21,424 nucleotides of DNA from a virus. Of the stretch, positions 3,140 through 11,503 are shown one piece after another; position 1 is the stretch's first letter, and every line of letters begins with the position of its first letter. A program made the translations under genes and the position numbers. The notes under the pieces are model-generated. The model saw only the letters and a program-made list of their open reading frames with translations. It had not been told where the DNA came from and did not search any database. Where the stretch lies: positions 1 through 21,424 of IMG/VR virus record IMGVR_UViG_3300017739_000143; one strand, written 5' to 3'.

Positions 3140-3168
3140 ATTATACAGAATTTATACTTGTTTGTCAA
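3140..3168 (-). promoter_or_regulatory. Sigma-70-type promoter for the leftward operon
   Basis: On the minus strand TTGACA (3168-3163), 17-bp spacer, TATAAT (3145-3140): a perfect consensus. Transcription should start near 3133 and run into the genes from 3014 leftwards. Confidence 0.85.
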
Positions 3169-3220
3169 GAACTATTTTAAATTAACATAAGAAATTTTGT
3201 GTGTGGGGATATTTGAAGCG

Positions 3221-3271
3221 AAAAAAATGGAGAGAAAAGCGTGGGACTTGCCCTACTACTTCACTCTCCAT
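3221..3271 (-). terminator. Intrinsic terminator of the large RNA
   Basis: Minus strand: ATGGAGAG (3271-3264) pairs with CTCTCCAT (3234-3227), enclosing a GGG-CAAGT-CCC hairpin, and is followed directly by a T run at 3226-3221. Confidence 0.75.
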
Positions 3272-4202
3272 CCAAAGTTTTTGTTGTTTAAAGTGGTCGT
3301 GGCGGAATAATTCACGAACCTATCCACTGCGTAACGAGAGGTGATGGATATTACGAACTTCAATCTACGACTTGCGTCTATGGTATACTGCTCATTTCGC
3401 ATCACTTCTTTACTACTGTCGACTAATCGAGTGCGTGATTCTACAACATATCTGTTGAGTGAAGGTGCGACCTCCGTACTCTCACCAATCTCTTTCCAAC
3501 TTAATGGTAGCGACAAAATCGTGTCATACTGCCCACTCGTCCCGCAGTATGAGGTGGAAACCACTTTTGTTTCCTTACTCTCACTTGGCACACTATGTGC
3601 ACCAGCATATGTGTCTGCTTACTTCCGTAACACCCTAAGGTGGCAGACAACGAGGTTTGCTATTAAGAACTTTTCGAATTGACAGTTAAAACTGAATCTC
3701 CTCTAATAGTTCGAGCGTGGTTTCCTCACACTGGGGTTGATTGTATGGTCATAATCCACCCTGTTCAATTACCTCTGTTTTAGTAAACCCGAAGGTCGTA
3801 ACGCCCATTAAAACAGTAAAACAAATCGCTTTTATACTATCGAGATAGTGCTGGAGTCTCTTGGTTCGTTGTGCTTTGCTTATCGCCTTTGCTTTCGTAT
3901 TGCTACTAAGTTCGCAGGACTTATTGAAAGTATCCCCTCAACCCTTTACCGACCAGTTAATCGGGTTATGACTCTCTCCTTGCTGCGGAAGGTATGTCTC
4001 ATAACGACTCTCAAAAGCGGACATTATTTTCGGATAACGCTATCTCAAAATGTCTAAAGAGCATACGGCAGTGTTTAACGACTCGCCAGTCAGGGTAGAA
4101 AACAACTCTTGCTTATTTATTCGCTCTCCCTCCTCCGAAGAGTCTGGGGTCAATGCTAAATCATTTATTTTTACAATTTAGTGTTGTTTTCTTTGTTTCT
4201 GA
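3221..4202 (-). ncRNA. Large structured non-coding RNA, ~980 nt (GOLLD/ROOL-like class candidate)
   Basis: No convincing gene exists here on either strand, yet the stretch is bounded by a perfect promoter (4209-4237) and a terminator ending in a T run at 3226-3221. Read on the minus strand it is full of perfect local helices. Examples: a linker-free three-way junction at 3649-3612 (TGTCTGC/GCAGACA enclosing CACC-TTAG-GGTG and TTAC-GGAA-GTAA, the last a GNRA loop); CATACTGC/GCAGTATG at 3551-3544/3532-3525; GCACA-TAG-TGTGC at 3600-3588; CTGTTTTA/TAAAACAG enclosing a CTTCGG loop near 3820-3778; ACTAT-CTCG-ATAGT near 3846-3833; GAC-GCAA-GTC at 3378-3369. Size, phage setting, GNRA loops and strong expression signals recall giant RNAs such as GOLLD and ROOL, but I cannot recall their consensus well enough to assign one. 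Function unknown; virion-associated or RNA-cage roles are speculation. Confidence 0.78.
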
Positions 4203-4208
4203 ATATAT

Positions 4209-4237
4209 ATTATACTCACTTTCTAACCATTTGTCAA
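4209..4237 (-). promoter_or_regulatory. Sigma-70-type promoter of the large RNA (proximal copy)
   Basis: Minus strand TTGACA (4237-4232), 17-bp spacer, TATAAT (4214-4209), so the RNA starts near 4202. About 45 bases around it are nearly identical to the second copy at 4317-4345. Confidence 0.85.
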
Positions 4238-4316
4238 GAAGAATTTTAAGTTTTTTATCACTTGGTGATAGAAACTTTACTCAATCCCAACGGGGTTTTT
4301 TCTTGTTTATAAGTAT

Positions 4317-4345
4317 ATTATACTCACTTTACGACCATTTGTCAA
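4317..4345 (-). promoter_or_regulatory. Tandem duplicate promoter upstream of the large RNA (distal copy)
   Basis: Minus strand TTGACA (4345-4340), 17-bp spacer, TATAAT (4322-4317). The -35 box overlaps the stop codon of the nuclease-like gene. Transcripts from here would run through the proximal promoter into the large RNA; no T-run terminator on this strand lies between. Confidence 0.8.
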
Positions 4346-4758
4346 GAAGAACTTTGAATTATTTCGTGAATATCTTCACTTAATTCATCGAAAGTTAGCA
4401 CCTTGCTGGAGAACAACCCTGATGCCAAAGCATCGTTTGCCCACTTTCGTATGGTCTTTCCTCTTTCACTTTCCCAGTGTGCTCCCCCTAATATTACGAG
4501 TCCTCCACCGAATTGTTCAAGATTGTGTAGACAGAAAGGTAATTTCTCATCTACAGAACCACTTCCTCCCTGATATTTACACTCTATATGTAATTTATCT
4601 ACTACTATGTCAATTTTACACCTACTACTTCCGTAAAGATTAGTGTATGGCACTTGTGTTTCGAACTCTATGCCGTTCTTCTCTAGTAATAATTCACATT
4701 CTAACTCAAATGCTTTTCCATTATAGTTCGCTTTCGCTCCCTGTGTCAGTTTAGTCAT
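4342..4758 (-). CDS. PD-(D/E)XK nuclease superfamily protein
   Basis: I choose the ATG at 4758 because AAGGAG lies just before it; a start five codons earlier has none. The 138-residue product has the core of the superfamily: an N-terminal helix with an acidic residue (GKAFELECELLLEKNG, E18/E20), D50 in a beta strand (CKIDIVV), then E59-x-K61 (HIECKYQGG), matching D-x8-ExK, followed by a helix. This is a Mg-dependent nuclease fold found in restriction enzymes, resolvases and phage host-takeover nucleases. Length fits a stand-alone catalytic domain. Target DNA is unknown. The gene is transcribed alone, and its stop overlaps the RNA promoter. Confidence 0.72.
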   Translation of the reverse strand: MTKLTQGAKANYNGKAFELECELLLEKNGIEFETQVPYTNLYGSSRCKIDIVVDKLHIECKYQGGSGSVDEKLPFCLHNLEQFGGGLVILGGAHWESERGKTIRKWANDALASGLFSSKVLTFDELSEDIHEIIQSSS

Positions 4759-4777
4759 ATTGACTCCTTGCAAATTT

Positions 4778-4792
4778 GTATCGAAACGATAC
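4778..4792. repeat. Inverted repeat, possible operator
   Basis: GTATCG-AAA-CGATAC is a perfect 6+3+6 inverted repeat between the nuclease-like gene (start 4758) and a TATAAT-like box at about 4806-4801 (minus strand). A repressor site or a 5' UTR hairpin are both possible. Confidence 0.35.
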
Positions 4793-4842
4793 TACATTGC
4801 TATTATAGTGTTCGGAATTAAACACTTTAAGAAGGGCAGAGA

Positions 4843-4912
4843 TACTTTGCAGGTCAAGAGTCGAACTTGCTACTTCCATTTGGTGTGCTTCCGAAGACAC
4901 TTCTCCAAAGTA
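4843..4912 (-). other. tRNA-like fragment, possible decayed tRNA or attachment core
   Basis: Minus strand: a canonical T-arm (CAAG-TTCGACT-CTTG with the G53/C61 and TTCGA signature) and a canonical-looking anticodon loop (TTCGGAA, anticodon CGG) on an irregular stem occur in the right order. The 7-nt stretch after the T-arm has no partner at the 5' side for a normal acceptor stem. Instead TACTTTG/CAAAGTA closes the element and CTACTT/AAGTAG forms an alternative helix. It may be a degenerate tRNA, a tRNA-derived attP core, or a UTR structure. A working tRNA is unlikely. Confidence 0.3.
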
Positions 4913-4920
4913 GATACCCT

Positions 4921-4950
4921 TTTTAAAATGTGGTTACTTAGGGCAACCAC
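4921..4950 (-). terminator. Weak terminator-like hairpin after paralogue B
   Basis: Minus strand GTGGTT (4950-4945) pairs with AACCAC (4935-4930), 9-nt loop, followed by ATTTT. It lies 11 bases past the stop of the gene at 4961. The T run is short. Confidence 0.4.
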
Positions 4951-4960
4951 TCCTTGACTC

Positions 4961-5272
4961 TTATTGTGAGATTGCGTCAACCAATCTTTGAAGGTCTGCT
5001 TTACCTGCTTTTACTAGAGTTGGTAACTCGATGTCGAAGTGGTTAGCGATTGTGTCAACTAATTCTGTCTTCGATACTACTGGTTCACCTGATTTAGTAG
5101 TTCTAGGTTGTGCAATGTATACACCTTCTCTTGACAGTTTGGCAATGATACTTCTTGTAGTTTTGCCGAATTGCTGTGCAAGTGCGTCTACAGTTTCTCT
5201 TGTAGGGTTTTCAGTGTATGCTGTAGTCATTTCTGAAACCATTTCTTCTGTGTAGTTTTTAGCGTTTGCCAT
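4961..5272 (-). CDS. HTH-like/SAP-like small protein (paralogue B)
   Basis: This 103-residue form starts at the ATG at 5272, which has GGGAGAA before it and its own promoter at 5300-5328. It matches the gene at 173-487 along its length: YTEEMV start, RETVDALAQQFGKTTRSIIA core, KLSREGVY, TKSGEPV linker, and a C-terminal helical module (LVDTIANHFDIELPTLVKAG). A longer frame begins at a GTG at 5368 with AGGAGG and another promoter at 5395-5423, adding 32 residues; both forms could be made. A nucleic-acid-binding role is inferred from the HTH-like and SAP-like pattern only. Confidence 0.75.
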   Translation of the reverse strand: MANAKNYTEEMVSEMTTAYTENPTRETVDALAQQFGKTTRSIIAKLSREGVYIAQPRTTKSGEPVVSKTELVDTIANHFDIELPTLVKAGKADLQRLVDAISQ

Positions 5273-5299
5273 TGTATTTCTCCCAAAATATGTATTTAT

Positions 5300-5328
5300 A
5301 TTATATCCGATGTCGTATAACTTGTCAA
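5300..5328 (-). promoter_or_regulatory. Internal sigma-70-type promoter, short form of paralogue B
   Basis: Minus strand TTGACA (5328-5323), 17-bp spacer, TATAAT (5305-5300). It lies inside the 5' part of the longer reading frame from 5368. Confidence 0.82.
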
Positions 5329-5394
5329 GGACTATTTCTGAAAACTTTGGTTTGTATGTATTTTTCACTTTTTCCTCCTTTTGATTATAAATAT

Positions 5395-5423
5395 ATTATA
5401 ACCGCTTTGACAGGTATTGTCAA
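5395..5423 (-). promoter_or_regulatory. Sigma-70-type promoter upstream of the GTG start at 5368
   Basis: Minus strand TTGACA (5423-5418), 17-bp spacer, TATAAT (5400-5395), followed by AGGAGG and GTG at 5368. Confidence 0.82.
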
Positions 5424-5441
5424 GACTAAATTCGAATTATT

Positions 5442-5597
5442 TTAGTCCCAGTCGCCATTTACCCAAGAGAGTGCACATCCGCCGACGACAGAACAGATGA
5501 ACAGGATTGGACTTTCTGCCCAAAGCAATGGAACGATTGTCGCAAGTAAAGCGTACATAAATAGTCCTGCTAGAAAGTATACTATTGCGTTTTCCAT
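5442..5597 (-). CDS. Two-TM membrane peptide, 51 aa
   Basis: Start chosen at the ATG 5597 because AAGGAG precedes it and the promoter at 5629-5657 lies just upstream; a longer frame would begin inside or before that promoter. The product (MENAIVYFLAGLFMYALLAT...) has two hydrophobic segments, about residues 4-22 and 28-44, and an acidic tail ending NGDWD. The size and hairpin topology fit a phage membrane effector or holin-like peptide, but no family is recognised. Confidence 0.65.
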   Translation of the reverse strand: MENAIVYFLAGLFMYALLATIVPLLWAESPILFICSVVGGCALSWVNGDWD

Positions 5598-5628
5598 ATT
5601 ACTTTTGTCTCCTTTTGAATATAAATAT

Positions 5629-5657
5629 ATTATACACACTTTGAATATGATTGTCAA
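5629..5657 (-). promoter_or_regulatory. Sigma-70-type promoter of the membrane peptide
   Basis: Minus strand TTGACA (5657-5652), 17-bp spacer, TATAAT (5634-5629). Confidence 0.85.
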
Positions 5658-11312: not shown

Positions 11313-11503
11313 TGATACATTTAAGCAGTTACATGCAAGAAGACAAACGCGCAGAAGTTTTCAAAAAGGATGGCCACTATGGTGCAACCTTTTATGATAA
11401 TGATGAAAGAGTTGGAGAAGAACTCTACGTAGGACACAGTGAATCGTATGCAGAGAATGCAGCAGAAAACTATGTTCTAGGAATCAAACAAGTTGGCGTA
11501 TAG
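11312..11503 (+). CDS. Hypothetical protein, 63 aa
   Basis: AAGGAGGAA precedes the ATG. The product (MIHLSSYMQEDKRAEVFKKD...) has a short beta sheet pattern followed by a helix with SYAENAAENYVLGI, a closing I have seen in small phage proteins of unknown role. It overlaps the iscU start by 11 bases. Confidence 0.6.
   Translation: MIHLSSYMQEDKRAEVFKKDGHYGATFYDNDERVGEELYVGHSESYAENAAENYVLGIKQVGV

Follow-up and report, generated by a model that had tools for sequence, protein, structure and literature searches.

A probable new class of modular, kilobase-sized structured RNA in phages of an apparent T5-like clade

To our knowledge, few kilobase-scale RNAs have been described from bacteria and phages. 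GOLLD is phage-encoded, at least 0.8 kb long and rich in pseudoknots; it often lies beside tRNAs and combines a constant with a variable part (PMC12286853). ROOL, which occurs in phages or prophages, is several hundred nucleotides long, highly structured and often located near tRNA islands (PMC12286853). The two are mutually unrelated, and both form homo-oligomers or hollow RNA particles as visualized by cryo-EM; the raiA motif, another large RNA, is a monomer (PMC12286853).

The window analysed here is a 21,424-base IMG/VR fragment, probably of marine origin to judge by its sample number, and the RNA gene studied occupies positions 3221–4202 on its minus strand. The initial annotation suggested that this region encodes either a GOLLD- or ROOL-like RNA or a new one. 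Our analysis supports that suggestion, and the outcome is the latter: we assign a probability of about 0.7 to the reading that this RNA represents a new, trans-acting class of large structured phage RNAs.

Extent and coding potential of the RNA gene

Two signals reported in the initial annotation, a perfect TTGACA-N17-TATAAT promoter on the 5′ side of the RNA and a stem followed by a T run at its 3′ end, were both borne out on the minus strand (Table 1). Because the promoter (P2) spans 4237–4209, the RNA is expected to start near 4202. All homologues whose contig extends that far have a promoter at the P2 place, most of those with sufficient upstream sequence also keep the upstream copy (P1), and the position of the downstream promoter is conserved among homologues. 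With few exceptions, the complete homologues examined finish in a hairpin and T-run, although the sequence of the stem is often unrelated. Both ends are retained, about 0.9–1.3 kb apart, in all homologues on long enough contigs. The ~980-nt minus-strand RNA thus appears to be its own transcription unit, with promoter and terminator. Perfect 12/12 promoters of the same type are dense in this part of the window, with six in 2.5 kb (3140–5657, minus strand), almost one per gene. A boxA-like string in the core, TGCTCTTTA, was considered as an antitermination site and dropped because it is not conserved: relatives have GCTAGTTA, GCTTTTTA and GTTGGTTT.

Open reading frames of 111 and 113 aa are present in the region and could be taken to indicate a protein-coding gene. 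In the two longest ORFs, substitutions are spread evenly over the three codon positions (87/106/83 and 126/92/84), against 338/233/955 for the neighbouring gene, and both ORFs contain frameshifts and stops among relatives. These flat counts, frameshifts and stops agree with the earlier statement that the region holds no gene on either strand, and we regard the protein-coding reading as refuted.

Conserved structure, module U and exchanged domains

Folding energy alone is not decisive, because the single-sequence fold gives a modest z of −2.6 (20 shuffles). Homologues, which the initial annotation had proposed to inspect for covarying base pairs, provide strong covariation. The core alignment comprises 32 sequences aligned by sequence only; in it, a 34-pair structure with crossing elements has standard pairs in 98.7% of 1,086 pair cells, with changes on both sides in 24 of the 34 pairs and a covariation score of 0.541, compared with 0.186 when shuffled and at most 0.11 when slid. 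The top-ranked pairs in our own R-scape-like implementation, which uses a tree-based null and 31 core sequences, are standard in 31/31 sequences and lie at the E floor of the test (~0.007; E = 0.007). In the 21 sequences most similar to that of the window, helices that covary are found all along the RNA, from its 5′ end to the terminator. G-U pairs far exceed A-C mismatches in both main modules, by 56 to 2 in the core helices and by 26 to 2 in the other, which argues that the minus-strand RNA is under selection, since pairing in the other strand or in a DNA cruciform would make A-C equally common.

Both pseudoknots vary in a compensated manner. Pseudoknot 1 joins the loop of the core hairpin, GGC[G/A], to the segment [C/U]..GCC further downstream; at its variable pair, every sequence (32/32) has either G-C or A-U. 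Pseudoknot 2 lies in module U and joins GGU (3773–3771) to the loop ACC (3749–3747), with an outer pair that is G-C, C-G or A-U in 45/45 sequences. RNAalifold applied to module U alone returned the pseudoknot only; the hairpins of this module were named by hand and then counted. The three-way junction described in the initial annotation lies where it was placed. Compensatory changes occur in the stem that encloses it and in the UUAG arm; the GGAA arm is absent from the consensus fold and not kept in all relatives. These observations indicate a structure retained by compensatory change in many helices, including at least two apparent pseudoknots. GGA motifs, counted by eye, occur at about chance level, and a sponge of the CsrA type is accordingly not favoured.

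Table 1. Features of the RNA gene and its surroundings (window coordinates)
Feature	Position	Strand	Description
Structured noncoding RNA, ~980 nt	3221–4202	−	P2 start to end of T-run; homologues, covariation, non-coding
P2 promoter	4209–4237	−	TTGACA-N17-TATAAT; 12/12 match to sigma-70-type consensus
P1 promoter	4317–4345	−	Upstream copy, 12/12; 108 nt upstream of P2
Downstream promoter	3140–3168	−	Next transcription unit, 12/12; starts 53 nt past the RNA T-run
Intrinsic terminator	3221–3273	−	GC-rich GGAUGGAGAG... stem, then T7
5′ core domain	3931–4095	−	Crossing helices (pseudoknots); model R2, 179.5 bits; 34 pairs
Core hairpin	4080–4091	−	GACU[GGCG]AGUC; loop 4087–4084 pairs with 4071–4067 (pseudoknot 1)
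7-bp helix	3965–4005	−	GUUAUGA/UCAUAAC; double changes at 7/7 pairs
Universal module U, ~65 nt	3710–3774	−	Model R1, 72.1 bits; in all subfamilies, strong in most, weak in one
Three-way junction	3612–3649	−	UUAG and GGAA arms; from sequence, compensatory changes in part
3′ long hairpin domain	3331–3413	−	RNA positions 794–876; covarying pairs 797/873, 799/871, 803/865
3′ hairpin	3293–3327	−	GUGG-AYAGGU-UCGUG...CACGA-CCAC; just 5′ of terminator; compensating stems in 25 homologues
P1–P2 leader or putative small RNA	4238–4310	−	ACCCCGTTGGGATTGAG... hairpins; structured-looking
tRNA-elbow mimic	~4840–4915	−	Between D5-like gene and large RNA

The most widely shared part of the RNA is module U, which a profile detects in subfamilies I, I′ and III. 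In subfamily II it is matched weakly by a covariance model (E 0.02–0.08), at the correct place and on the correct strand, and a relation of this subfamily to the others through module U is weakly suggested. The covariance model of the core detected no core in the other subfamilies; the core is confined to one. Relatives without any core match have a promoter-to-promoter gap of ~1 kb in the same place. Subfamily II has a fold of its own, in which 57 of 182 predicted pairs are compensated and G-U outnumbers A-C by 130 to 14, counts that lean toward the fold because it was predicted from the same alignment. Inner domains and terminators are also exchanged within subfamily I. Because module U is common to the subfamilies while the core and other domains are not, the RNAs appear to form a superfamily that keeps its slot, its length and the central module, while the domains on either side, the 5′ core among them, are exchanged from phage to phage. 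The same slot holds RNA genes of ~1 kb whose sequences resemble the window RNA little or not at all at L034:2479–3480, L039:4027–5130, L040:1109–2190 and L041:1578–2510.

Distribution and genomic setting

Homologues were collected with the D5-like neighbour protein (4961–5290) as query, which returned 46 related loci; by blastn, at least part of the RNA is present in 36 of these, in pieces 71–100% identical. A degenerate core pattern matched 36 viral contigs, each of which a profile then confirmed, and a relaxed version added three contigs, none of which the profile confirmed. Patterns from other parts of the RNA yielded further members, and a query with the nuclease protein returned near-identical contigs alone. 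More than 80 viral contigs carry the locus. Its order is constant (D5-like gene, RNA, gene for a 74-aa protein, small genes, MazG); the exceptions to this single locus are L106 and L122, matches that lack the neighbouring genes. DNA comparison with named phages and plasmids gave chance promoter-like matches at most, and the 84,980 bacterial and archaeal genomes searched contain neither the core pattern nor a relative of the D5-like protein.

The longest contig carrying the RNA (105 kb) encodes a terminase that shares 48% identity with its counterpart in Pectobacterium phage My1, together with a T5-type fused protease/head protein, a portal, a tape measure, a DNA polymerase, a DnaB-like helicase and an SbcD-like protein. 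There the RNA lies in a plus-strand block of early and replication genes, ~5 kb from the point where transcription diverges and ~17 kb from the terminase gene. On the strength of these terminase, head, tail and replication genes, the carriers appear to be a T5-like siphovirus clade. Among the members found, the RNA is confined to this one clade, and independent lineages are therefore not available for comparison. The window also holds cargo unusual for a phage at 11493–18352 (plus strand), namely NifU-like, Fe-S biosynthesis, CsgG-like and curlin-like proteins, a FecR-domain protein and a CHASE2-adenylate cyclase; similar-looking cargo genes occur in the 105-kb relative. Two small, paralogous proteins similar to the T5 D5-like regulator (173–487 and 4961–5290, minus strand) flank a gene block in the window.

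Further small elements lie upstream of the large RNA. The P1–P2 interval is occupied in homologues by at least three unrelated, exchangeable types of sequence. The tRNA-elbow mimic has an acceptor-like stem that covaries among 17 distinct sequences, a D arm of four pairs (GUGU-CUACGGAA-GCAC) with GG in the loop, a T arm with the loop UUCGA[C/G]U and an anticodon arm that is a stub in most. It was called by neither ARAGORN nor Rfam and is also present in L005, L017, L018, L043, L080 and L145. True tRNA-Glu (UUC) genes are located just upstream of the large RNA at L018:577–651, L022:5475–5549, L058:39–113 and L080:12012–12086.

Possible roles and relation to known RNAs

A search of the region against all 4,227 Rfam families on both strands, at E up to 10, gave no credible match; GOLLD, ROOL, OLE and HEARO, which the initial annotation had singled out for comparison, were included. 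The same was true of cmscan with the window and 10 homologue loci, at gathering or loose thresholds. Directed searches of 10 records with the GOLLD model (RF02032) gave no match at E ≤ 10, against a weak control in which the control genomes match only below the cut-off; a search with the ROOL model (RF03087) gave none at E ≤ 10 either, in the region or in its controls. We found no description of this RNA in the open-access literature. The absence of an Rfam match, together with strong covariation and no coding signal, argues for a new class. The RNA appears to belong to neither GOLLD nor ROOL and to represent a new modular class comparable to them in kind.

Several readings other than action in trans can be weighed against these data. 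The RNA precedes a gene string of constant order, as would a leader, attenuator or riboswitch that acts in cis on the downstream genes, but in complete homologues a strong terminator and, about 50 nt on, the perfect promoter of the next gene part the two, which makes a cis-regulatory role quite unlikely; a ~1-kb RNA with exchangeable domains also far exceeds known riboswitches. An element working at the DNA level and folded as DNA, for example an origin of replication or a site for packaging, would agree with a non-coding stretch at most ~5 kb from the divergence of transcription directions, yet the excess of G-U over A-C places the selected pairing in the minus-strand RNA, and with a dedicated promoter and terminator in addition we judge this reading very improbable. 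Domains that are exchanged independently among phages might instead act singly, after cleavage of a precursor into several small regulatory RNAs; this is unlikely given that the domains keep their order within a total length that stays near ~1 kb, and we noticed no conserved single-stranded segments resembling guides.

A special form of the trans-acting reading is that the RNA assembles with itself into a homo-oligomer or hollow particle, by analogy with GOLLD and ROOL. The similar size, the phage origin, the several pseudoknots and the adjoining tRNA-Glu or tRNA-like element favour such assembly, as does its occurrence in both GOLLD and ROOL despite their lack of relationship. The architecture of the new RNA is unlike either, however, and the raiA motif, also large, is reported to be monomeric (PMC12286853), so that self-assembly seems possible but doubtful.

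Host RNA polymerase probably transcribes the RNA at an early stage of infection, as a free molecule of ~1 kb. The early timing is suggested by the strong host-type promoter and the neighbours, a D5-like regulator lying beside the RNA in what is probably a T5-like phage. Module U would make a constant contact, either with itself or with some conserved factor of the host or the phage, and the swappable domains may fit the particle to partners or hosts that change. Acting in trans, the RNA could be a structural scaffold or trap, a role also suspected of GOLLD and ROOL. A more speculative and rather unlikely version is a phage RNA particle with domains swapped around module U that self-assembles without protein and acts early together with the tRNA-elbow mimic, perhaps against host defence or on the host translation machinery.

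The new class offers dozens of natural variants in which swappable domains surround a defined universal module, and its place in the genome is fixed. It provides an independent test case for whether nanocages or other assemblies are common among large phage RNAs, and the covariation data are ready for use in structure determination. The exchange of domains may reflect selection by a partner that itself changes, a question open to experiment.

Like GOLLD, the new RNA is phage-encoded, large and pseudoknotted, with constant and variable parts. GOLLD is constant in its 3′ region and variable in its 5′ part, whereas the new RNA is constant in the central segment 3710–3774 and varies at its 3′ end. 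GOLLD is associated with phage tRNAs; the new RNA has tRNA-Glu upstream in L018, L022, L058 and L080 and otherwise the tRNA-like element. With ROOL it shares a phage origin and a high degree of structure, but ROOL measures ~0.6 kb against ~1 kb and the helices differ. GOLLD forms a 14-mer RNA cage and ROOL an RNA-only nanocage. OLE, the raiA motif and HEARO are likewise large structured bacterial RNAs, with no match to the new RNA in the Rfam scan. The pRNA of phage phi29 is a phage RNA that acts in trans and self-associates through loops; it is much the smaller of the two and forms part of the packaging motor, whereas nothing ties the new RNA to packaging. With large structured phage RNAs as a general kind, the new RNA shares both a compensated secondary structure and a non-coding sequence.
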